From the NCBI GenBank assembly GCA_030737835.1, contig CM060848.1, forward strand, positions 12,322,323-12,386,322: 64,000 nucleotides of DNA, in the 5' to 3' direction. Position 1 is the stretch's first letter, and each line of letters opens with the position of its first letter. The translations under genes and the position numbers were made by a program. This stretch comes from Acorus gramineus. Its lineage: Eukaryota > Streptophyta > Magnoliopsida > Acorales > Acoraceae. The notes below the pieces were generated by a model. That model saw only the letters and a list, made by a program, of their open reading frames with translations. It was not told the DNA's origin and did not search any database. Positions 141 through 26,098 of the stretch are shown piece after piece.

Positions 141-2191
141 GTTATCCCTGCTGAAAACATTGTTGCAGAGTTCCAGAGTTGTCAAAAGACTGTGTTTGCT
201 GTTGCAAGAACTTCAGAGGAGGCGCAAGTTTTCTTTGAGGTAAAACACATGATCATTGATTGATTATTTATATATGTATCAAGAACATTCAAGATTGTGT
301 TTTTAGGCATTGGAGCAAGGGCTTGATGGAGTTGTACTGAAAGTCGAGGATGTGGGAGATGTTCTTGAACTAAAGGTAACTCATCATGAACTCATGTTAT
401 TGGAGTGACGTGGAAACACATGCAGATGCAGCGCAGTTTCTCTTTCTTTTTGCTCCACTAATCATGTCTGTGCCTTTTGTTTATGGGCATTGATACACAA
501 TCATTTCATTCTTGCAGTCCCTTTTGCATCCCCACTTCCCCCTAACACTAAATTAGGAAAATGCAAAAAGACATGCATTTATTTCATTCGAGTCTATACT
601 TCAATTTCGTAATAGTATGTATTTAATCAGGCAAGTATGTTCCTCAAAAAAAAATTCAAAAGATGTTAGGGGCTGTAAAAGGGATAGCAGGAATGAAAAT
701 CCCTAATAATTTCCTTTGGTTACAGAAATTTAACCTTCAACTTCCATGTAGACTGAGTGTAATCGTTAGTTAGAGATCAATTGATGATGATTATTCTTTA
801 TTACAATATGCGTTGAAATTTTCAGGATTACTTTGACAAGAGGGATGAAGAAAGGAACAGATTGCCCCTGAGTAAGGCAACTATAAGATGGGTACAAGTA
901 GTTGGGATGGGTGATCGTGTGTGCGTGGATCTCTGCAGCCTTATGAGACCTGGCGAAGGCCTCCTGGTTCAGTCTTTGATCCGACTGTGACTGATTGACT
1001 CTTACATCATGCATATCTGGTTTTAAGCATACTTTTTTAATGTTCGAGATGTTGTATTTTCACAAGATCTTTTCTGAATTTGTTGTATCCCCTTTTTTGG
1101 CTGATGTGTGGCTGGCGTTTTGTAGGTTGGATCCTTCGCCAGAGGTCTCTTCCTTGTCCATTCAGAGTGTACAGAATCAAATTACATTGCCAGCCGGCCT
1201 TTCCGAGTAAATGCTGTGAGTAGAGGAACTCTTGTTCTTGACTGGCCCCATTTGGAACCACTTTTCTCAACCAGTTTTTTCAAAAAGCTGCTCTCAATGA
1301 ACTTTTCCATAAAAAATGCTCTCAGTCAGCTTTTTTCGTAGAAACTGTTTTGTGGAACTTTAACAAATGAAACCTAAAGTTAAAATTTGAAGACACCCAT
1401 TTGGAACCTATTATTTGAAAAAAATTATTTGTAGAAGTTCCAAATAGGGCCTCAATGAAAGCTCATCATCATCAAACTCAAAAAACTTTTGGTTAAGGGA
1501 GTTAGATTGGTTGTAGAGGTAATACACTCATGCGAAGTTTCTTTGTTTGTTATCTCAAATATTTAGACTTCCTCATCGAAATGTGCAGGGGCCAGTGCAT
1601 GCCTATGTTGCAATTCCAGGAGGGAAGACTTGCTACCTTTCAGAGTTGCAGTCTGGGAAGGAGGTCGTAGTGGTTAGTGAAAGTGGAAGGCAGAGGACTG
1701 CATTCGTTGGACGCGTAAAGATAGAGTCACGACCGCTTGTCCTTGTGGAGGCAAAGGTCCATGAACTATTCACCTGATTTGTCATTGAAAATGAAAATAC
1801 CTGATAAATGTGATTTGTCATTGATGATGTGAAGAAGATATATTATTAATTATATATTATAACTTGTTCATCTCACAAAGGGTTTCTCTACAGCTGGAAG
1901 GAGAGCCAGATGATCAAGCCACCTTTAGCATAATCTTACAAAATGCTGAAACTGTTGGTTTGGTTGGTTCACATGAACGTATGTTCATACAACCTTTAAT
2001 TTATTAACTAGACCATTCGGATCCATTGTTCATCATCTCTCTCATCCCTCTTATTTCATGCAGGAGATAACCCTTCGAAAACATTGATTCCTGTGACATC
2101 ACTTAAAGCTGGGGATGAAGTCTTGTTAAGAGTTCAAGGTGGTGCGAGGCACACGGGGATAGAGATCCAAGAGTTCATTGTCGAGAAATGA
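141..2191 (+). CDS. 3-dehydroquinate synthase II (AroB'-type) family protein, 3' part of gene
   Basis: Seven in-frame exons are readable: 141-239, 307-375, 826-966, 1126-1215, 1589-1756, 1894-1978 and 2064-2191 (TGA), all with GT..AG introns and consistent phases. They give 259 residues; the start lies upstream of the window. Recognisable family segments are [60 protein letters not shown] and the C-terminal [16 protein letters not shown]. Archaeal members (MJ1249 type) make 3-dehydroquinate from an amino-sugar precursor and aspartate semialdehyde. Plants also carry the ordinary AroB route, so the role of the plant homologue is not established. The intron at 1216-1588 carries a small MITE. A chimeric second copy lies 5 kb downstream in the same orientation. 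Confidence 0.93.
1244..1451. mobile_element. small MITE in an intron of the DHQS-II gene
   Basis: Inverted termini are readable: GGCCCCATTTGGAAC at the left and GTTCCAAATAGGGCC at the right, which are reverse complements apart from one base. The roughly 208-bp body is AT-rich with no coding capacity. It lies entirely within an intron. Its inner sequence (TTTGGAACC..CAAAAAGCTG) resembles the element in the kinase intron near 14690. Confidence 0.65.
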
Positions 2192-3806: not shown

Positions 3807-4252
3807 CCCGATTACAGTGATTATCTGCAATTAATACTAGGTAGACATGGACCAAGTGTCCCCAGAGGGGATGACCGGCCCGCGGAACCCATTATTAGCT
3901 ACTTGAATAATGTTTCACACGATCTTTTTTTCATCCCTGATTTTTCCAACTCTAAATCCAATCCGTACCTATTTTTTATTTTAAAAAAGTAACATGCATC
4001 ATCTAATAAAATATATGTCTTTATAGAAAAAATATATTCCAACAAAATGTATAAACTTATTTATAAAAAATATATTTTTTAATGAGACATGTATTGTGTG
4101 GTTAATGAACAGATCAACACAGCCCTTTTAGCTACTTGTGTTGCACGGATTATACAGCAATCTCGGCCCGAATTCGAAATCGGGCTGAACTGCTGCCCGA
4201 ATATCGGAATCGCAATCTAGCAAACACAGCGCAATCTAACAACAACGTCGGG
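3807..4252. other. Spacer upstream of the chimeric gene promoter
   Basis: AT-rich sequence with no gene seen; the last ~120 bases become more GC-rich approaching the presumed promoter of the chimeric gene. Confidence 0.4.
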
Positions 4253-4355
4253 CCATATAAGTCAACCCGAACCCAGCCCGCGGACCGCACTTCCTCTCCC
4301 AAACCTAGGGTTTCTCTCTTCTTTCTGCAACGCCGACGGCCGCGGCTGAGTACAG
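4253..4355 (+). promoter_or_regulatory. Probable promoter and non-coding leader exon of the BED-DHQS gene
   Basis: A TATA-like CCATATAA at 4253-4260 is followed about 30 bases later by a GC/CT-rich leader (CCTCTCCCAAACCTAGGG, then TTTCTCTCTTC) typical of plant 5' UTRs, ending ACAG before GTACGT at 4356, a strong splice donor. The next acceptor, TCTAG at 7263-7267, abuts the ATG of the BED exon. The sequence shows the motifs; joining them as one transcript is inference. Confidence 0.55.
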
Positions 4356-5231
4356 GTACGTCCGCCGCCACAAGTCGCTCTCTTTCGCGTCTCCCTGTGT
4401 TTTTGTCTCATATGATCTTTAGAAAGTTAGGTTTTTGAGAGATTTGAGTCCTCCGGTGATTATGGTTTCTCACTGAACTTTGGGTTCATAGTGTATACCA
4501 AACATCTGTTTCGATTGAGGGGTTTTTTTTTTATTATTATTAATTGTGGTTTTTGTTCTTTGGCTAATACTTGTAGGTTTTTTTTTTTCCATTGAAAACA
4601 AAATAATAATTTTGTTATTTTTGTGTTTCGAAAGAGTATTTTATTTAGGGTTTTGTATCTGATTGGATAACGTGTTACAGAATTTAGTTGTAATTTTTTT
4701 TTTCTGAATTCATACTTGGGACATTATGTCTTTTTTTTTTCTTCTAATTTTGGGGTAAGTAGAAGTTTGGGTTTACCTTGATTTTGGTTTTAAAATATTG
4801 ATGATTTGGGTGCTTTGACAATCCTCTTGTGATGTATCCTTATATATTTCATTAGCTATATATTTATGATGTTTGGAGGAAGTGGATTATAGGGTATGAT
4901 CTTATATGATGTTTTTATTGAAATACATGTGAGAATTTAAAATCCCACCCCATTGCCATCCCTTTCTGGATCTGTTATTAGCTTATTATTGTGTGGCCAA
5001 TGATTAATGAGTTAGGACAAAGAAGATATGATGTTTGGATGGGTAGGTTTTTTGATGCAATGGGGCCAGTTGATTGTTTGGTTTCTTTACTTTTTTTTTT
5101 TATAGTAATAATCCTGTAATCCTGTTCAATAACATGATTAGGCTAACATAAGGTTTTATTTTGTGATTGTAGCATTGCATTTCTTTTTCTAGTTATTGTT
5201 ATCCCTTTGTTTTATTGACTTGTATGCATAG

Positions 5232-5339: not shown

Positions 5340-6712
5340 CTATATTGAGTTATGGATGACTTGTGGCTTGGTTGGGATCTCTGATCCAACGTCACTTCTT
5401 GTGGAATAGGGTGAAAAAGGCTAGAAACAGAGTTCATGTAGTCGAATAGAACGTGGGCTACAACAACAAGAGGGCAGGGGGAGCAAGTGTCCTCAGCCTT
5501 GAAGATATAAACATAGCGCTCCTTTGTAAGTGGCTCTGGAGGAGGCTCGAGAATCCAAACCTGTTAAGGTGTAGGATGGTAACTGCAGTGGCACTCTTCA
5601 TGATAGATTCCCACGGTGTTCTATTAGAACATTTAGATTGTGGAAACGCATCCTGGCAGGCGTGGAGTGTTTCTCAGAGGCTATCCAGTGGTTAGTACGG
5701 GTGGGTGATTCTATTAGATTATGGCATGTTGTGTGGCTTGGGACTCTTTCTTGAAAGAGAAGTTCCCAAGGTTCTTTGAGCTTGTGATCAACAAGGAGGG
5801 AGCAGTTCGTCGGTGTTTGGTCAAGGAAGCAGGGGATGGGATAATGGGAGATTCAAGTGATATGATACATCAATGAGGTGAGGTTGAGAGCTATCTGGTG
5901 ATCCTGGAGGAGCTGCAGGAGGTCTCGGTGCTCTACCTAACAAGAGGGACTTGATTTTGTGGAAGCCCAAGCCATGGAAGGGATTCTCGGTTCATAGCTG
6001 TTACAATTGGTGGAGGATGACGAGGTCAATGAGTACAGTGACAACATATAAACACAAAGAACTTTGGGGATTTAAATATCCTCTCAAAGTCAAGGCCTTC
6101 CTTTGCACTGTGTATTTGCGCAAGTTCTTGACAAAATCCTAAGCGCAGTGGACCTAGATGTGAACTTGACCTGTGCCTTGTGCAGTGCATAGGTTGAAAC
6201 TATGGAGCATCTTTTCATCCTCTGTCTGATGGCTAGATAGATGTGTTTGGACTATAGGAATGGGTGTTGGTTTCACGACATTGAAGGGGAAGTGGGAAGC
6301 AGGAAAGAAGATGAGAAGGCAGGAGGGAAGGAGCATCCAGGCGAAGATCTCGGAGTTGTTGGTCCTGACAATTGTGTGGGCTATCTTGACTACACGGAAT
6401 CAAACCATCTTTAAGGGAATCACCCCGTATGGGGAAAATACTTGGGAGTTGGTGGTCAGAAGCATCTAGGATTGGGGGAGATGAAGTCAGTGGCTTTCTC
6501 GGGGGCGACCTTGTGTTCTGAGAGTTGCCCCTTCATGTTTACTGGTCCCCCTGGCTGGTCTCTCGGTAGGGACTTCTTCTACTGGGAACCTTGCCATGTG
6601 CCATATGTATTTTTCTTTCTTTATTTGTACCTTTACCTATTCTGGACACATTCTGATTTTAATAAAATGAGGGCGAATGACTACTGTTTTCATAATTAAA
6701 AAAAAAAGAAAA
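5340..6712 (+). mobile_element. Decayed LINE (non-LTR retrotransposon) 3' part
   Basis: Fragments in several frames read as the end of a plant LINE reverse-transcriptase polyprotein: GGASVLSLEDINIALLCKWL and LWRRLENPNLL, then KVKAFLCTVYLRKFLT (zf-RVT region), then a cysteine-containing TCALCS stretch, ending in an untranslated tail and AATTAAAAAAAAAAG. Stops and frame changes are frequent. It lies within the presumed leader intron of the BED-DHQS gene, in the same orientation. Confidence 0.75.
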
Positions 6713-7267: not shown

Positions 7268-9887
7268 ATGTCACAGACAAACAATGAAGAAGATTTTGAT
7301 ATCAGCACTACTGTTATATCTTCAAGCAGACTACGCAAGAGAAAAAACAAACTGAAGTCTTTCGTTTGGGATCACTTCACAAAATTAGATAATGGAAAAG
7401 AGGAATGTGTGTGTGGTAATTGTGGTAAGGTTTATTCATGTAACAGTAGGAGCGGAACCAGCCATCTTAAACGCCACTTGGAACTTCAGTGTGGGGGATA
7501 TAAGAAAGGAAGTCTTTCACCAGGAGTTGTACTGGCACTGGATCAAAGTTTTGTTGGAGTTGATATCAAGGTTGAGGAGCCTCGAGACATCCACGAAGTA
7601 AAAGTAATTTGTTCTTCCACATTTATTGATTAATTTCATTTCAGTCAGAAAGAATTAATATTGTTTATGTGATGTGTTTTGTGAATTAGCTTTTTTGCCA
7701 TCATGTATTGCATCCTGCCCTTCTACTTGTCATTTCTGAGCATAGTTGTATGGCTAATGTATCAGGATTGTTTGGGCAGAACAGCTGGACATCAGTTGGT
7801 CCTAAGTAAGGCCACTATTACACAGGCACAAGCAGTCGGTGCAGGTGATCGTGTGTGTTTGGATCTCTGTAGCCTCATGCAACCTGGTGAAGGCCTTCTT
7901 GTGTGTTCCTTGACCTCATCTGTTATGGTTTATTCTTACAGCTTTACCCCCTGTATGAGTTGTGACATTGGGTTATTCGTTCCTGATAGTTATACTATGA
8001 TAGATAACAATTCAGACTGAATAAGTAATTTTTTGTTTGGTTGCATTTTCTGTTATTCTCATTGGAAAACGTAAAAATGATTTTTTTGTTGTTTGGTTCA
8101 TCTTGGATAAAGTGATGATAAATAGTTGATAAGGGATGAATAAGAGTTTATGACTTTTTAAATGACAACTAAACCCTTGGGAATAGTGTGAGAAATGTAT
8201 GATTGATTTGATAGATGTGACAGTTTTTGAAATCTGTGTGAGACTGTTAGGTGAGATAAATTTTTTAAAATGACAGAGAAGGGTATTTTTATCCATTGGC
8301 ATAGATAAGGTCTGATAAGCAATTCCAACATTTTTTTAAAATAGTTATCAGGCCTTATTTTAACTTATCCAGACATAACTATCGGGGTTTATTATGTCAA
8401 AACAAGCAACTTTTTTTTACTATTCTCCTGTATTCTTTCTTATCCTGGACTTGTTTCTCACGCCATACGGGGGGGTTACTGTATGTGTTGGCTTCTTGGC
8501 AGTATAATTTTAATAGGACCGTATCTCTTTTTCGCTTCCCAGTTTATTAAATTTGTCCGGCACAAAATCCTTATTTTATCTGCTACAAATATCATTATTG
8601 GAAACCTGCAGGTTGGAACCTTTTCTGGAGGGCTTTTCCTCGTGCATCCAGAACATTCAGAATCTGATCCAAGTGCTAGCAGACCTTTCCGAGTTAATGC
8701 GGTATGTTTGTAATAGTTGACTTTTTAATTACTAGATTCGAGCCAAATCTGACAGGATTTATGTGTGACTTGAGATAATAAGACCAAGGAAACCAAGATA
8801 AGAGTGTGTGTTCATTCATTCATTCTTGTCTTTGCCATGTCTACGTCCTAGTTTGTCAAGATTTTCCATGTTGCCATGTCTGTATCGTGTTGTGTTTGCG
8901 TCCCGTGTCTGCCTCCATGCTCCACAGCCGACGCCACACATTTGGATTAAACTGAGGACACTCCTTGGGACTGATGTTTCAAGTTGGATTCATACTTTTA
9001 GTTTACATCCCCATGCACTACATCAAAGTTTATGTGAACCATGTTTCGGAAATTCATAAATTTGAATCTGATAGAATATGGACATACACACAAAAAAAAT
9101 ATAATCGTTATAGTATTTTTTTATTTATTATTTCATTGATATATGTTCATGTCCAAAATGGTTGGGTAAGCTGGATTCGGACCCAATATCTTTTATACCA
9201 TTGAGGTGGTGGGTCAAAACTCAATGTCATAAATAGTTTGAAACTTCAAAATGCCAACTTGTATCCCAGCATCCCATGCTGTGATGCCTAATATAGATAT
9301 ACATTGGTTATGAGATTTTCTGTTAGAGTTGGAGGATAATTCATATTCTCATTGAAACATGTAGGGTCCGGTGCATGCTTACATTGCTCTCCCAGATGGA
9401 AAGACCTGCTACCTCTCTGAGTTGCACGCTGGCAAGGAGGTCATGGTGGTTGACCAAAATGGTGCGCCGCGGGCTGCAATGGTTGGTCGTGTAAAGATAG
9501 AGTCACAACCTCTTATTCTTGTGGAGGCAATGGTTTGTAGTGCTTCATTTTCTGGACGTGTTTTTTTTTTCTCTTTAAAGTTAAGATGATCAAAATGTAT
9601 TATTCGGACCTTTTTTTTTTTGTTTTGATGCAGCTGCCAGAAGAGTTGGATCATCGAAATATCATGAACATCTTTTTGCAGAATGCAGAAACTGTTGGCT
9701 TGGTTGTTCCTTGTGAAGGTTTGAATTTTCTGAGAAGAGCATTTTCTGTTTCTTGTTTGTATTGCAAACTGTTTTTTTTTATTTGCCCTTCATTTGTTTT
9801 GCAGAAAATAATCCCTCAAAGACAGTGATTCCAGTTACCTCTCTTAAAGTTGGTGATGAAGTCCTGGTTCGAATTCAGAACGAATAA
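7268..9887 (+). CDS. Chimeric BED zinc finger / DHQS-II-like protein
   Basis: Six coding exons: 7268-7603, 7766-7900, 8612-8701, 9365-9532, 9634-9718 and 9805-9887 (TAA), giving 298 residues with no internal stop and canonical splice sites. Residues about 28-75 form a BED-type finger: W34, F37, C49-x2-C52, H66-x3-H70. From residue about 89 the protein follows the DHQS-II paralogue at 141-2191 (about half identical at first, higher later: [44 protein letters not shown]). Three inner exons have exactly the paralogue's lengths (90, 168, 85). It stops at RIQNE and lacks the [16 protein letters not shown] tail. The ATG lies directly at the splice acceptor. BED fingers bind DNA and are typical of hAT transposases. 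Whether the product acts as regulator, decoy or nothing is unknown; a recently silenced pseudogene is possible, though the open frame argues against an old one. Confidence 0.82.
8031..8410. mobile_element. MITE-derived sequence in an intron of the chimeric gene
   Basis: 8034-8080 (GTTTGGTTGCATTTTCTG, then TTATTCTCATTGGAAAACG) matches the reverse complement of 20790-20842, so both come from one family. The right boundary is uncertain because the body has decayed and contains a second GTTTGGTTCATCTTGGATAA end. Confidence 0.5.
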
Positions 9888-11442: not shown

Positions 11443-13312
11443 CTGTAGTTTGTTATAAGCTCGCCACGTCTCACTCAATTCATCGGACGGTGAAAACCAA
11501 ATATGTTTCTTTGGTGGACCCCACTTCCTTTGTTTCCTTTTTTTAATGCTAGTCATGCATTGGAGAACAACATTTGACTATTTTTTTTTTATCTTCTTTC
11601 AATCTATAGTTGCATACACGTTATTTTATTTGCCTTTTGTTTCTGTCACAACGGGTGAATATTTATTTTTAATTTATTTGTTTTGTTGGATGAAATGAAA
11701 TCCAATAGTGGTATTTTTAAAAGAATAATATTAGATACAACCCTAAATGCAATATCCCACAAATCATTCGTACATGTTTTAATTTTTAAAAATATTAATT
11801 TTGTTTAAAAATGTATATGTTTTGATAAAAAAAAAAAATCATTCGCTTTTATCAGTGCTGACAAAGGTGTATATCTTAGTGGATGGTTAACGAGATATAT
11901 AAGACTACATTTGAAGATCTTAAAATAATTACACAATCTACATTTTAAAACAAAAGATCCTTTTTTATGTTTTGCCTATGTTTCAATTCAAATAACTAGA
12001 TTCCATCATATTTGTAGTATTTAATAAAACAAATTACACATTTTAAACTAAAACAGAATACATAACATAATACATAAATTAGTCACCATAATTACACAAT
12101 CTACATTTTAAAACAAAAGATCCTTTTTTATGTTTTGCCTATGTTTCAATTCAAATAACTAGATTCCATCATATTTGTAGTATTTAATAAAACAAATTAC
12201 ACATTTTAAACTAAAACAGAATACATAACATAATACATAAATTAGTCACCATAATAATCACTGTAATACAAAAAAATAATATTTTGATAGAAATATAGAT
12301 GAAGACACCTTACTTGAAACATTAATTTTTTTTGGGTGGATTCTTTGGACATATATCTTCAACAACATTGTTGTTTGAAGCTTGTGAGTCTTGAAATGCG
12401 AAATTTGTATATTGATATGATGAGTTGTGTTGAAGAAATGACTGAAAGCTAGTATGTTGGGGATCTGCATAGACACCCACGATGATGGATTAAACATGTC
12501 ATTTTCTTGTTCTTGTATCATTAAATATGTTCATTGATCAACAAGACGTTCATGGACATATAAGTGGACAGTTAAAAAAATATTTACTGGATATGCATAA
12601 TACATGGTGGAGAATATTGGCTATTACCACCCATATAAAGTGTGTGAGGAGATATTTTAACACCTTATACAAGATAAATATTGATTTAAATGAACAAACT
12701 GGTTGAAATGAAATTTAATTCAATATTAAATATACATTATGTGTTTGTCAAGCATTAGTAGGCGTTTTCTTTAAAATTTAGGCTGTGTAAAACAAAAAAA
12801 AAAAAAAAGATCTAGTTGCAAAGTCATTTTAAGATCTCTAAATGTAGTCTCATATACCTCGTTAGCATTCAACGAGATATACACTTTCGTCAGTATTAAC
12901 AAAAACAAATGATACATATTTTTTTTATCAAAACATATGCTTCTTCAGACAAAGTTTAATATTTTAAAAAAATTAAACATGTTTTTGTGGGATATTGCAT
13001 TTAAGTTTGTATCTAATATTATTCTTTTAAAACTATCCCCTTTTTGGATTTCTTTTTGAGATCCAACAAAACAAATAAATTAAAAATAAATATTCACCTG
13101 CTGTGATGGAAACAAAATGTAAATAAAATGACGTGTATGCAACTGTAAATTGAAAGAAGAAAAAAAAAAAAAAATCAAATATCGTTATCCAGTGCATGAC
13201 TTGCATTAAAAAAAAAGAAAACAAAAGAAGTGGGATCCACCAAAGAAATATATTTGGTTTTCCACCGTCCGATGAATTAAGTGAGACGCGGGCCTGTGAA
13301 TAAACTATAGAA
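11443..13312. mobile_element. Fold-back (long inverted repeat) element
   Basis: Two arms of about 480 bp, 11443-11926 and 12817-13312, are reverse complements at high identity. Shared stretches include TCATCGGACGGTG, TTTCTTTGGTGGA, TTGCATACACGT, GAATATTTATTTTTAATT, AAAGAATAATATTAGATAC and AATGCAATATCCCAC. The ~890-bp centre holds a perfect tandem duplication and no transposase-like frame. The long arms suggest a Mutator-like or Foldback-type non-autonomous element; no target duplication was found. Confidence 0.75.
11928..12253. repeat. Perfect 163-bp tandem duplication
   Basis: 11928-12090 and 12091-12253 appear identical, both starting ATTACACAATCTACATTTT and ending AATTAGTCACCATA. They sit back to back at the left of the central part of the fold-back element. 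Identity this high implies a very recent duplication or an assembly artefact. Confidence 0.9.
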
Positions 13313-13909
13313 GGATCCGGTCCCTTCCAAACGGCCTTGGTTAGAAGAGCTATCTAATCAAAGCATGCATGCTCGTCTGAGTAGTTGACTCAATGACTAA
13401 CTGGAATTAGTGAGCTGAAGTGACATATTGACATCCATGCTATACCGCTTCAAAGGACAAAGAAAATGATATGTCTAGCTTGTACGTAACTCCATTCGAA
13501 ATTCACATTTTTTTTTTTAAAAAAAAATATAATCACTCAAAGTACATAATATTATAAAAAATAAAATATATGTAATTGTTTTATTAAAAAATAATTTTTT
13601 TTTAAAACTTTTACAGTGTATATATTGCACTATCACAATGTATAGACGGTTGAGGGACTGCTTTCGATTGTTGATAGAGCTATAAAACAGACTCAATGCG
13701 TCAACACCCAAGGACCAAAATTGATCAAACATATTAGCTCATGAGCAATGGAATATTTAAAAGGCTTTAGGTGTCGATTCACACAATAATCTCCCCCAAA
13801 ACATAGCCTCAACAAACAGACTAAAAGGACACATTGAGAGAAGAAGAATAAAAAGATTGAAGTGAATGCACAAGGAAGAAGTACCAGTCAGGGGGTGGTT
13901 TCATTCGAC

Positions 13910-16900
13910 TCAGCGAACCAGTGGAGACCGCCGGTGGGACGGCAATGGAGACCCACCTGGAGCGGATGATCGACGATGCTGATGAGGCCTCATCGGAGAC
14001 CTTGAAAATGTGGTTGCGCGCGACTGAATCTCCTGTTGGGGCATCTTCGCCATCTCCTTCGGGTCCTGTAACTCTTCCAGAGTCGCCAAGACCTCTGACA
14101 TGGTGGGCCTGTACCTGGCTTCGCCACTGATGCATTGCAATGCGATGGTCGCGACGACAAAGGCTCCCTTCTTGGGGTATTGGCCGCCCAATTTGGTGTC
14201 CATTACGCGGAAGAGCTTGCGCTTGTCTCCCAAATATGGCTTCGCCCAGTCCGCCAAATTCTGCTCCACGCCTATCTTTGACTTATCGAGAGCGTGTCGC
14301 CCTGATAGAAGCTCCAAGAGAACAACCCCGAAGCTGTAGATATCGGCCTTTGCGGAGAGTCGTCCTGCGCATACGAGTGAGGCGTGTGATGCTAATGAAT
14401 TGCGCGATACCATCTTAAGTTTCACATGGACGGAAAACAACTAAAGGGTCGTTTGGAAACGAGTTGAAAATCAACTTTTCAGGGCTTTTGAAAATAACTT
14501 TTAGAAAATGTACTTTTTTTAGATTTATGAAAAGATATTTTTTATAGCTAAACATTGTTTGTCACTTTATTCAAATAGTGAGACTATTAAGGGCGTTTGG
14601 AAACAAGGCTGAATTAAATACAAGTCTTATAGAAGCAGAATCTCTCAAATACACAAATGCATTTCCAAATGCAACCAAAGCTTTGTTTGGAATCAATTTT
14701 CAAAAAATAGTTTTTTAAAAAGCTGATCTCAAATAGCTTTTTCGTAAAAGTTGTTTTGTTGGTTTTTAACATGTAAAATCAAATTTTAAAAGTAAAAGCT
14801 AAAGTGAAAAAAAAAAAATTAAACGTTTAGAAATGATTTTTTGAAAATCAGCTTTGCAGGAGTAGAATCAGTTTGAGAGTTGGTTCCCGCACGACATAGA
14901 TGTTTAACAACAAAACTTAGTGAGATGAACAATCACGAAAATATAATTCATGCCGAGGAATCAAACAAACCTGTGGCGATGTATTCTGGAGCCGCGTAAC
15001 CAGGGGTACCCATTACTTGTGTAGAAACATGAGTTTTGTCACCGGTAGGCCCGGCTTTTGCCAACCCAAAGTCTGAGAGCTTTACATTAAATTCCTGTAT
15101 TATGGATACACGCGTTGTGAGTTTTGGGAAGTGACTTACAGAAGCAGATACACATAAAGAAGTATACCGCGTCAAGGAGTATGTTTGAAGCTTTCACATC
15201 TCGGTATATGACTTGGGATTCAGCGTTGTGCAAAAATGCGAGTCCCCGAGCTGCCCCAATAGCAACCTTTATCCTTATTGCCCAAGGAAGTAGTGGCTGA
15301 GCACCTCCTACAATTGGTAGACACGGCTCATTACATCGGTACTCCCAATAGAAGTTGATAAAATAATAGATAAAATGAACTTCTGATGTCTATTTATAGT
15401 CATAAATAAATCAGAGGCTTCCACAAACAAATAGGAACCAGGTGTAATTGGAACAGGTTAGGATGATGAAATTTCCAGATGCATCAACTTTGTTTCCACA
15501 AATTTCAATGCAGGTAAAGAACATATTGTTAGCTTCTCACAGGAGATTTGGCAGCTTATCTGTCTTTCATACTTTGGAAAATAAACAAGGATTCATGATG
15601 ACCAAAACAGATTAACCAGTCACTATTTCCTATCAAAGGACAACACATCTCCTATCCCAACGAATCAGAAATACAACTTTAGAGATATATATCCAAAAGT
15701 AAGATCAGAGTCTAAAGAAACTGACAGGCATAACTTCTTTCATGGCCAAATGGAGAGGGAAATAATAAACAAGAAGAGAAAAGCGAAAAGCCAAAGCAGA
15801 CAAACTCAGATTAATGCAGAAAAATTTAATAAATTGAAGCTCATCGTTCGGCTTAGAAGTAACAGTTGAGATCCCAATTGCTAGTTGGCTCTTACCTAGA
15901 GAGAACCATTGGCATTTCCTGATGCCCAACAGAATTTGGGCAGATTAATTTCTAAGATTTACACCCAATCATTTATGGGAAAAAGGCTACTTTGATAATT
16001 TATTTACAAAACAAAGAAAAACAATCAAACATTAATCAACATACATCATTTAGACTTAAACTGCTTCCAAAGATGTTCCACCAATGAAGAAACTCAAACA
16101 TTGAAACTTATTGGACAACCTAACTAATCATCATAAATGCATGTCATGCAAAGAAACAAAATATAAAGCTAAGATAGAGAGTTACTCACTTCTGAACAAA
16201 TGATTCTCCAAACTTCCTTTCGGCATAAACTCGTAGACCAGGAGTCTGTTATCACCTTCTGAACAGTACCCAATGAGCTTAACAAGATTTGGATGATGGA
16301 GCTGACCAAGATAGTCGACCTCCGTCTGCAACCAAAAGTATATATCAAACCAAAATTCACATGCTGCAATTGACCAATGAAGGGCACATGAAGAAAGAGA
16401 GTTGTACAGATACTACACTTACCAACCACTCCTTGTGGCCTTGAAAACCCTCCGGTTTAAGCCTTTTAACAGCCACGACAATGCCCGATCCTGGTTTCGC
16501 GGGGTTGTAAGTGTGCTCATCAATCCATCCTTTGAAAACATAACCGAATCCTCCCTCCCCTATAAGACTATCTGGGCGAAAATTTCTAGTGGCGTTTTTC
16601 AGTTCATTGAAGGTAAAGGCCTTTAAATTTGAAGATGATAATATCTCGCGCTCAGTTCGAGGAGTTGGGAGACTCTCAATACTCTTTTCAGTAAAATATG
16701 GAACGGTTAGAGAGGAGGATGAAGAAATAGCTGTCTGGCTTGAATGAGCTGAAAATGTGCTTGTTTTGTAGTTTTTGCTGCTCACTTTTGAAGGTTCTGG
16801 TTCAGATAGAGGAGGAAATAACGTTTTTCTTAGATAAACATAAGATAAGAGTTTATTATAACTTGCAAAATTAAACAATACTCAATAAAATGGATAGCAT

Positions 16901-17994
16901 TAATCAGTATTTGCAGTCCCCATGTACATTATCAACAATACAAAGGAGTGAAATAGTATAAAAATATTATGAAAAACCCAAGAATTTAAACTCATAAAAA
17001 TGTGCTTTAATCTCTGCGTGAAATCTAAAAATCTAAATTCAAATCTGGATATGCCACGTATCATCCGATAGATAGGAAGCTAAATGATTAATACAACAAA
17101 ATAAGTATAAAAAAACACCAAATGTATAAAAAATAATATCAAATGGGGTGTTCATTTCTTTATAGCATATAAAATCCACAACAGATACCAACCATAAAAC
17201 TATTGGATATGAAAATCCTGGTCCAGGATTGGAGATCAGCCTTTGAAAAAACCACCTCTTTCAGAAGTACAGACTTCAACGGTTCCAAAATCTCGAAACA
17301 TGACACAATCCCAAAAAATTAATTCACATCAAAACACAGGCCACAGTATTCCAGAAAATAGACTCAGAGAACAACTACTGATGCTTGACAAACACATAAT
17401 TTGACATAAAAAGCCTAAAACAGGGGGGAAATTATGAAAAATACGAAATATATAAATAAAAAATTACAGAACGCCTCACACACACACACACACAAACAAA
17501 GAAGGAACGAACCATTCACCAATAAAGGCTCAAAAAGGAAAATTTAAAAACATTAATAGCACTTTTAATGAATATGCATAACATATTGAGCAGATGAATT
17601 AGAGTTACCATTTTCGCTACAAAACCTGTAAAGTCAATCAAAACCAACAAAGAATTCACATCGGATCAAACACACCCCTTAAAAAAAATTCATCATGTAA
17701 ACAAACTTTCACACAAAAGAACCCAATAACAAAACTAGTACCCCAAATTCAAAACTTGCAGAGAAAAGAAGCAAAACCCAACAGAGATCCGTTTCAAACA
17801 ATCCGACCCAAAAATCACAACAACCCATTAGAGAAAAATCAAAACCCAAAACACCCAAACCCAAAAACCCACTAAAAAAAAAGAAACCAATTTTAACAGA
17901 GTACAAGAATTCAAAAGCAAAAGAGCTCCGCCGAACCTTGTTGAGGGATGTGAGCGTTGTCGACCCTCGTAGAGGTTTTCAGGCAGTTCCCCAT
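13910..17994 (-). CDS. Receptor-like cytoplasmic kinase, RLCK-VII (PBL/APK type)
   Basis: Six exons on the minus strand: 17994-17937, 16796-16423, 16325-16190, 15307-15168, 15094-14971 and 14364-13910, with phases that fit, giving 428 residues. It starts MGNCL, the N-myristoylation plus palmitoylation signal that places such kinases at the plasma membrane. After a Ser-rich linker come the kinase parts: GEGGFG loop (99-104), VAVK with K130, YRD with catalytic D226, DFG (244-246), and a PxMSEV-like C-lobe. The basic Ser/Pro tail is typical of the group. Family members relay signals from receptor kinases in immunity and growth by Ser/Thr phosphorylation. All key residues are present. Intron 1 is 1.1 kb; intron 5 holds MITE-like sequence. 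The first acceptor (AACCAG at 16797-16802) was chosen by phase and pyrimidine tract and is the least certain junction. Confidence 0.93.
14446..14887. mobile_element. MITE-like sequence in the last kinase intron
   Basis: Repeated motifs CGTTTGGAAAC (14453, 14594) and TTTGTTTGGAATCAATTTTC (14683) with TTTTGAAAATCAGCTTT near the right end resemble decayed hAT-type MITE ends, and part matches the element at 1244-1451. Probably two adjacent elements; boundaries are approximate. Confidence 0.45.
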
Positions 17995-18385
17995 GAGAGT
18001 CCCCTCCCGAAAAGCTAAAGCTTTCCTTCTCTATTTAGAAACCAACACTCAAACATCCATTAAAAGAGCCAAAAAGACACCATTTTGTCCCCTCCTTTTT
18101 ATTGTCTGTTAAATAGAGGCATAGACAGAGACGAAGATAAACGTGCTTTCACCCTTTTGTGTTTTGAGTTTCGGAGAAGAATAAACAAAACATCACACAG
18201 AGAGAGGAAGCGTGTGAGGTGAAGTCAAGTTTTTAGTCTTTCTTTCCCTTGAAAAATTGATGAAAAACCCCTACAAAACTTCTTTGATCGATGATGCTAC
18301 TGTAGGACAATTGTTGACTCAGCACCTTATACAGTCCCGCAACCTTTTCTTTTATGGGTTTTTTTATTCATATTTAATAATCTAT
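17995..18385. promoter_or_regulatory. Upstream region of the RLCK gene
   Basis: Sequence directly upstream of the kinase start codon. It is pyrimidine-rich when read on the plus strand (so GA-rich on the coding strand) for about 150 bases, as in many plant leaders. No clear TATA element was seen, so the transcription start cannot be placed. Confidence 0.35.
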
Positions 18386-25652: not shown

Positions 25653-26098
25653 ACATATATTCTCAGTTACAATTGTTTGAAATAGAAGCAAAAAACTAAT
25701 AATAATGGAGTAGTATGCAACAATAACGCCAAAATCTACAAAAGAAAAAAAAAGTGAAAATGAGTTTGATCACAGGCAAGATGGTCATTTAAAGTGATAT
25801 ATATGTTTTTTTTTCTATATTTTCAGTGATTTATATGAGTGTTTCATTTCACACAGATGAAATATTATGATAATATATCATTAAATTGGATTAAATGTTA
25901 ACACATGAACTAAATTGACTAACCATAAAAATTTAAATGATCTGTATGTCCAACTCCAAGTTTGCAAGGACTTATATGGGTTTATGGATGTTTATAGGAA
26001 CTCAAATGTTTTTAACTAAAAAATAATACCTTTTCGTACATGTGTCGGTGAAGACTTATTAATTAGACGAATAAGAGAGATTAAAAATGGTCGGACAC
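25653..26098. other. Spacer with a fragment of the large-palindrome family
   Basis: No gene. About 25960-26020 (GGACTTATATGGGTTTATGG, then GGAACTCAAATG) resembles the right end of the palindrome at 58541-59497, so it is probably a broken relative. Confidence 0.4.

Follow-up and report, generated by a model that had tools for sequence, protein, structure and literature searches.

A BED zinc finger joined in frame to part of a DHQS-II protein: a probable host-transposase fusion gene domesticated in Acorus

Within a 64,000-nucleotide stretch of Acorus gramineus DNA (hereafter the window), one exon joins a transposase-type BED zinc finger to a body resembling the neighbouring DHQS-II gene, which raises the question of whether this locus encodes a working protein or preserves the remains of one. 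A sequence-only reading had placed the joint in frame within a single exon, had described the later frames and splice sites as intact, and had concluded that the locus is not an obvious dead copy. Our analysis bears out this description. The gene at 7268-9887 on the forward strand comprises six exons (Table 1) that join into an open frame of 298 residues with one terminal stop, all five introns have GT...AG ends, and the start ATG sits immediately 3′ of a splice acceptor. The coordinates and the finger residues proposed earlier are correct: the first exon translates into 112 amino acids containing W34, C49, C52, H66 and H70, which supply the N-terminal aromatic residue and the C-x2-C ... H-x3-H ligands of a zf-BED domain (PF02892). 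Pfam locates this domain at residues 33-75 of the joined protein (E 4e-7, 30.4 bits), and exon 1 by itself reaches 32.8 bits (cut-off 20.6). Residues 90-297 match positions 132-328 of the 344 positions of the DHQS model (PF01959; E 1.1e-72, 245 bits), and both domains exceed their cut-offs. Read from this domain order, the finger sits where the enzyme domain would have its front. In a newer precomputed Pfam annotation, the deposited fusions P0002-P0004 carry PF26558 without PF01959, and DHQS-II carries PF01959 and PF26558. The fusion protein gave no Pfam match at E ≤ 1 to the hAT dimerisation domain (hATC), nor to NB-ARC or LRR.

Table 1. Positions of the fusion gene, its DHQS-II neighbour and features of intron 1 in the window.
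Feature	Position	Strand	Remarks
Ordinary DHQS-II gene, 3′ part	142..2191	+	Gene start upstream of the window; paralogue, parent of the fusion body
DHQS-II neighbour, frame-checked exons	307-375, 826-966, 1126-1215, 1589-1756, 1894-1978, 2064-2191	+	
Fusion gene, proposed 5′ UTR exon	4290..4355	+	Sequence reading; donor TACAG/GTACG
Fusion intron 1, broken LINE-like remnant	5450..6470	+	From the ORF list; the deposited model begins inside it
Fusion exon 1	7268..7603	+	ATG, RKRK (23-26), zf-BED (33-75), DHQS-derived end from nt 7535
Fusion exon 2	7766..7900	+	DHQS-derived, 45 codons
Fusion exon 3	8612..8701	+	DHQS-derived
Fusion exon 4	9365..9532	+	DHQS-derived; starts GPVHAY, includes GKTCYLSEL
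Fusion exon 5	9634..9718	+	DHQS-derived
Fusion exon 6 and stop	9805..9887	+	Without the DHQS-II tail (21 protein letters not shown)

The paralogy of the body to the neighbouring DHQS-II gene, also part of the earlier description, is confirmed with one refinement: the DHQS-derived part opens at residue 90, which faces base 307, the first base of an exon of the neighbour. This neighbour, whose A. calamus relative is P0005, has 226 open codons across six frame-checked exons, a further exon near 142-240 having been read by eye. The final 69 bases of fusion exon 1 align without a gap to the neighbour's exon 307-375, with 45/69 identical. The next-best ungapped placement in the whole window, the exon itself excluded, reaches 34/69 on the forward strand and 34/69 on the reverse strand, and none of 200,000 protein shuffles equalled the score of the match. 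Given so singular an alignment and the shuffling result, the joint between the BED finger and the DHQS body is therefore not due to chance. The intron preceding exon 307-375 in DHQS is missing from the fusion, and the exon borders of the fusion body agree with those of DHQS-II; we read the joint as lying within the exon, at or slightly 5′ of the DHQS exon border.

We also considered an artefact of the gene model, with the finger and the DHQS exons belonging to separate transcripts or with an assembly error at the joint. The deposited A. gramineus model does depart from the 298-residue model (65 additional LINE-derived residues, exon 2 omitted), yet a joint inside one exon requires no splicing choice, and the same joint recurs at a second locus on C7 and in A. 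calamus. We rejected this explanation on those grounds and hold it to be barely credible.

Synonymous divergence between the fusion and DHQS bodies (dS of 0.99 and 1.18, NG86) lies below the value of 1.88 given for A. gramineus and Spirodela in the available part of a published genome analysis (PMC10282084), in line with a duplication within the Acorus lineage. The DHQS family has 11 matches in the same genome, all of them on C2, which carries the window, or on C7, and a gene exceeding the part present in the fusion is found on C2 only. Body trees were built from 28 proteins, then from 25 after removal of two prokaryotes and of one Brassica row judged badly trimmed, P0004 being in neither. The three fusion bodies included form a single clade (100/100), and the fusions fall together with Acorus DHQS on one side of a branch with support of 88/74, not starred. 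A local tandem origin of the fusion body from DHQS-II is favoured by this pattern, though not proved.

How much of the enzyme remains? The label of a DHQS-II-like body holds as far as homology is concerned, but only the C-terminal ~60% of the model is present and ~15 conserved tail residues are gone as well. None of the four fusion sequences has either the domain front or the RHxG tail. The missing N-terminal part is home to four deeply conserved residues, and five of the six deeply conserved tail residues, including R366, H367 and G369, have no counterpart in the fusion. For the assessment of conservation, a length filter retained 108 plant DHQS-II proteins (of 117) and 118 prokaryotic ones (of 120), the prokaryotic set coming from a protein search from one prokaryotic relative locus with 120 of 7955 matches listed. 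The two sets share 62 body positions whose conservation reaches 90% in each; of these the window copy keeps 56 (6 lost), and the C7 copy (13 lost) and P0003 keep 49 each. With neither the domain front nor the RHxG tail present, DHQS activity of the fusion protein is unlikely and catalysis would not be expected; the DHQS-derived fold is plausibly kept. The alternative of a degenerating enzyme, raised by the sequence-only reading, suits this loss of catalysis but does not suit the retained reading frames, and its other suggestion, of a metabolite-linked protein, appears unsupported in view of the same two missing parts.

Against its 56 of 62 deeply conserved residues, the window copy matches the consensus of plant DHQS-II at 76 of the 146 remaining body positions. 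This pattern would nevertheless fit a metabolite-gated regulator in which a shikimate-type or NAD-like ligand, bound by the DHQS-derived domain, governs whether the finger attaches to DNA. Besides the absence of the domain front and tail, the C7 copy carries the substitutions N252H, Y259H, K297E and R207H (P0005 numbering), and a search by sequence found no solved DHQS-II structure on which a pocket could be mapped; we would give such a regulator little chance. A metabolite-responsive DNA-binding protein, a nuclear regulator switched by a ligand that the DHQS-II C-terminal domain still recognises, seems to us to have a slimmer chance still. If this were true, a plastid-type enzyme would have had its front half exchanged for a transposase finger, and both resulting copies would have been retained past a genome doubling because they diverged in target or ligand. 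Metabolite sensing is possible and is not favoured over a plain scaffold.

The second intact fusion lies at C7:16152243-16154309 (positions 6244-8310 of L009), has the same six exons as the window copy, and also keeps GT-AG ends at its five introns. Colinearity between the C7 block and the window takes in the fusion, a kinase-like gene at 13844-18007 and a further match at 25667. Between the two fusions, dS is 0.44 (NG86) or 0.36-0.38 (LWL85, YN00, ML); for the kinase-like neighbour it ranges from 0.34 to 0.77 (NG86) in five stretches chosen as coding by reading, out of 24 all-frame rows. According to the available sections of the genome paper, the Acorus genome duplication has a dS peak of ~0.46 and dates to ~41.7 Mya (PMC10282084). 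Because the second copy stands in a colinear block with dS near this peak, the fusion most likely predates the Acorus genome duplication. The kinase-like gene, on the reverse strand and duplicated in the C7 block, gave Pfam kinase matches below their cut-offs in its last stretch. Just 3′ of the fusion, at 11464-13291, lies a foldback-like element with ~450-nt inverted arms, made of several blocks that are 81-94% complementary, around a core of ~900 bases.

The sequence-only reading had also proposed looking in related genomes for proteins combining zf-BED and DHQS domains, and the same architecture is present in A. calamus, where two annotated fusions (P0003 and P0004) each contain both. The finger scores 28.3 bits in the C7 copy, 23.5 in P0003 and 29.3 in P0004 (cut-off 20.6), and the C2H2 zinc ligands are retained in all four fusion sequences. 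Both A. calamus proteins are nearer to the C7 copy, and no A. calamus orthologue of the window copy was found among the 120 of 1364 proteins listed. Branch lengths since the split of the two copies are 0.37 for the C7 lineage (the C7/A. calamus pair) and 0.12 for C2, about three times more change in the former.

A dN/dS comparison had likewise been suggested, with neutrality as the outcome that would tell against the fusion, and neutrality was not obtained. Between the C2 and C7 copies, omega over the whole frame is 0.38 (NG86), with a 95% bootstrap range of 0.26-0.53 and none of 500 replicates at or above 1. The DHQS part gives 0.30 (0/500 at or above 1), the finger core 0.35 (0.13-0.99; 12/500) and residues 1-89 as a whole 0.62 (55/500; 0.62-0.82 across estimators), and residues 1-30 are near neutral at 0.94 (238/499), all by NG86. 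Other estimators give higher values, of 0.44-0.51 for the whole frame and 0.36-0.46 for the DHQS part; in the finger core, LWL85 and ML yield values of 0.50 and 0.65. We also fitted a codon model to three sequences with DHQS as outgroup, over 209 codons of the DHQS part only, the finger lying outside. Post-duplication omega for both copies jointly is 0.40 and omega = 1 is rejected (2dlnL 18.1); the window copy alone has an omega of 0.27 (2dlnL 5.8) and the C7 copy alone 0.54, for which neutrality is not rejected (2dlnL 1.5). On the outgroup branch, which includes the older fusion stem, omega is 0.26, and the point estimates suggest looser constraint after the duplication than on DHQS; a model with one omega (0.33) shared by all branches is almost as good (2dlnL 1.7). 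The two copies together are under protein-level constraint, the case for which appears weakest in the finger and in the C7 copy.

Several of these results would be expected of a slowly decaying chimeric pseudogene, one whose front half has been lost, whose transposon finger is accidental, whose open frames are remnants and whose protein is inert. Neutrality is not rejected for C7 by itself, the first 30 residues are near neutral, C7 has evolved faster, the DHQS front and tail are gone, and post-duplication omega exceeds that of the outgroup branch, although this relaxation is not significant. Yet both frames remain open after a dS of ~0.44, and in 20,000 neutral simulations at 0.22 substitutions per site, frameshifts not counted, a stop-free frame was retained in 0.66% of runs for C2 and 0.49% for C7. 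All five exon indels between C2 and C7 are multiples of three, against 8 of 22 intron indels (counted from printed lists), both copies have GT-AG at all five introns, and omega = 1 is jointly rejected. Furthermore, C7 and P0003 are ~97% identical, with no more than 10 differing residues among 295 and a single gap. With the orthologue Ks of 0.058 taken from the genome paper (PMC10282084), rough arithmetic over ~664 nonsynonymous sites leads to a neutral expectation of some 38 changes, versus the 10 observed. We regard the pseudogene explanation as unlikely.

Where did the finger come from? Exon 1 matches at least 94 places in its own genome, including the two fusion loci. Beyond these two, the five best fingers by E-value lie within open frames of 552-699 amino acids, and of the three such frames scanned, L014 and L016 combine zf-BED with a hAT RNase-H domain and L021 has zf-BED only. 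Because of this kinship to hAT frames, the finger is likely of hAT descent. In the search for a donor element, the nearest ten fingers by E-value are 40-48% identical. Such an abundance of related frames, with hAT RNase-H in two of the three scanned, could also suit a transposon-control protein, that is, a hAT repressor whose finger competes at hAT ends or which poisons transposase dimers. The low identity of the ten best relatives makes common target ends doubtful, and the fusion is without the hAT dimerisation domain; we see small prospects for this explanation. At residues 23-26, all four fusions have a basic cluster, RKRK or KRKR, that is present in none of the three DHQS proteins compared, and the four fusions share ancestry. 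Four-residue basic clusters are a nuclear-signal pattern and a weak predictor.

The deposited A. gramineus model, P0002 (QJS04_geneDACA018844), matches the window protein at 253 of 253 aligned residues; it opens with 65 residues found in a LINE-like frame at 6230-6469 of intron 1 and omits exon 2. This frame-neutral exon is omitted in P0002 and P0004, that is, at two loci and in two species, and is kept in P0003. Because it comprises a whole number of codons, its skipping could represent real alternative splicing. The deposited Acorus annotation drew on RNA-seq among other evidence, as stated in the available text (PMC10282084), which is not proof for this gene in particular. Three pieces of the LINE-like remnant were scanned, of which one gave a weak zf-RVT match (E 0.0034, below the Pfam cut-off) and two gave none. 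The flanking matches are ~1,480 bases apart in the window and ~360 in the colinear C7 intron; because the C7 intron is so much shorter between the same matches, the remnant was probably inserted in C2 alone. Near the proposed 5′ UTR exon, only weak colinear pieces align with C7, at 4253-4280 (E 0.31) and 4336-4358 (E 6), and intron 1 aligns better 3′ of it, at 4467-4588 (E 6e-6) and 4768-4900 (E 2e-12). The stretch 4130-4400 has no other match in its own genome at E ≤ 0.001, and no donor for the exon was found. The stretch at 4290-4355 is put forward only tentatively as a 5′ UTR exon.

No literature was found under the gene name At3g28760. The sequence-only reading knew of no described BED-DHQS fusion, and we likewise found none among the papers listed on BED or transposase fusions or on dehydroquinate synthase. 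Host-transposase fusions are known in animals, including KRABINER, SETMAR and CSB-PGBD3 (PMC12062965, PMC3459987). Going by the accessible portions of these sources, they resemble the Acorus fusion in combining a transposon DNA-binding part with host exons, and CSB-PGBD3 is dated, as is the Acorus fusion, to tens of millions of years. The Acorus fusion differs in being a plant gene, in having its N-terminal BED finger within one exon instead of spliced on, and in having part of a metabolic enzyme as partner. An ankyrin repeat-DUF4219 fusion has been described in plants (PMC12062965); the main text of that article, as far as it was available, mentions neither BED nor DHQS. SLEEPER genes, the domesticated hAT transposases of angiosperms (PMC3499209), share with the Acorus fusion a hAT-type C2H2 BED finger domesticated in flowering plants, but according to the portion available they keep the hATC dimerisation domain that the fusion is without. 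In BED-NLR immune receptors, as described in the accessible text, a BED finger has also been captured by plant host genes (PMC7761493, PMC8196641), with an NLR as partner, which the Acorus fusion does not have. Finally, the plant DHQS-II-like protein itself (PF01959/PF26558; A. calamus P0005) is the ancestor of fusion residues 90-298, with matching exon borders, and has a domain front, a putative transit peptide and an RHxG tail, all three of which the fusion lacks.

BED fusions account for 3 of the 120 proteins listed out of 1364, and all three are from Acorus, with none from other plants among those listed. Two were flagged by a precomputed Pfam column, which may miss others among the 120, and P0003 by our own scan. 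A protein search with exon 1 only returned two of 27 candidates and missed P0004, a known positive; because the sensitivity of this search is limited, unannotated BED-DHQS fusions may exist in other plants. The capture of transposable-element fingers is already known; a DHQS partner for such a finger was not encountered elsewhere in the searches made.

These findings lead us to consider it rather probable that the locus is a host-transposase fusion gene domesticated in the Acorus lineage, encoding a nuclear DNA-binding protein with a non-catalytic DHQS platform. According to this interpretation, a DHQS-II gene would have undergone tandem duplication, and one copy would have exchanged its 5′ half for the start of a hAT-type transposase frame with its BED finger, the in-frame joint falling at the start of a DHQS exon or a little 5′ of it. 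With the N-terminus of the enzyme and its putative transit peptide lost and a basic cluster present, the protein would enter the nucleus, where the BED finger would bind zinc and DNA. The DHQS C-terminal domain may have taken over from the hAT dimerisation domain, serving without catalysis as a platform for folding or pairing, and a likely role of the protein would be the regulation of nearby genes or of related hAT ends. We infer nuclear entry, DNA binding and pairing from the sequence. That the fusion is a selected protein-coding gene we hold with good confidence, and this is much safer than the DNA-binding mechanism, which we put forward tentatively and somewhat short of even expectation. 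Because neither copy has been disrupted in the time since an ancient genome doubling, the fusion is probably a working new protein.

Acorus therefore offers a compact fusion, confined to this genus among the proteins listed, that has an enzyme-derived partner and is most likely older than the ~42-My-old genome doubling. Represented by two intact copies, one of them next to the unfused parent, it would constitute a tractable case for the reuse of an enzyme fragment beside a DNA-binding domain, and it draws attention to the little-studied C-terminal domain of plant DHQS-II.
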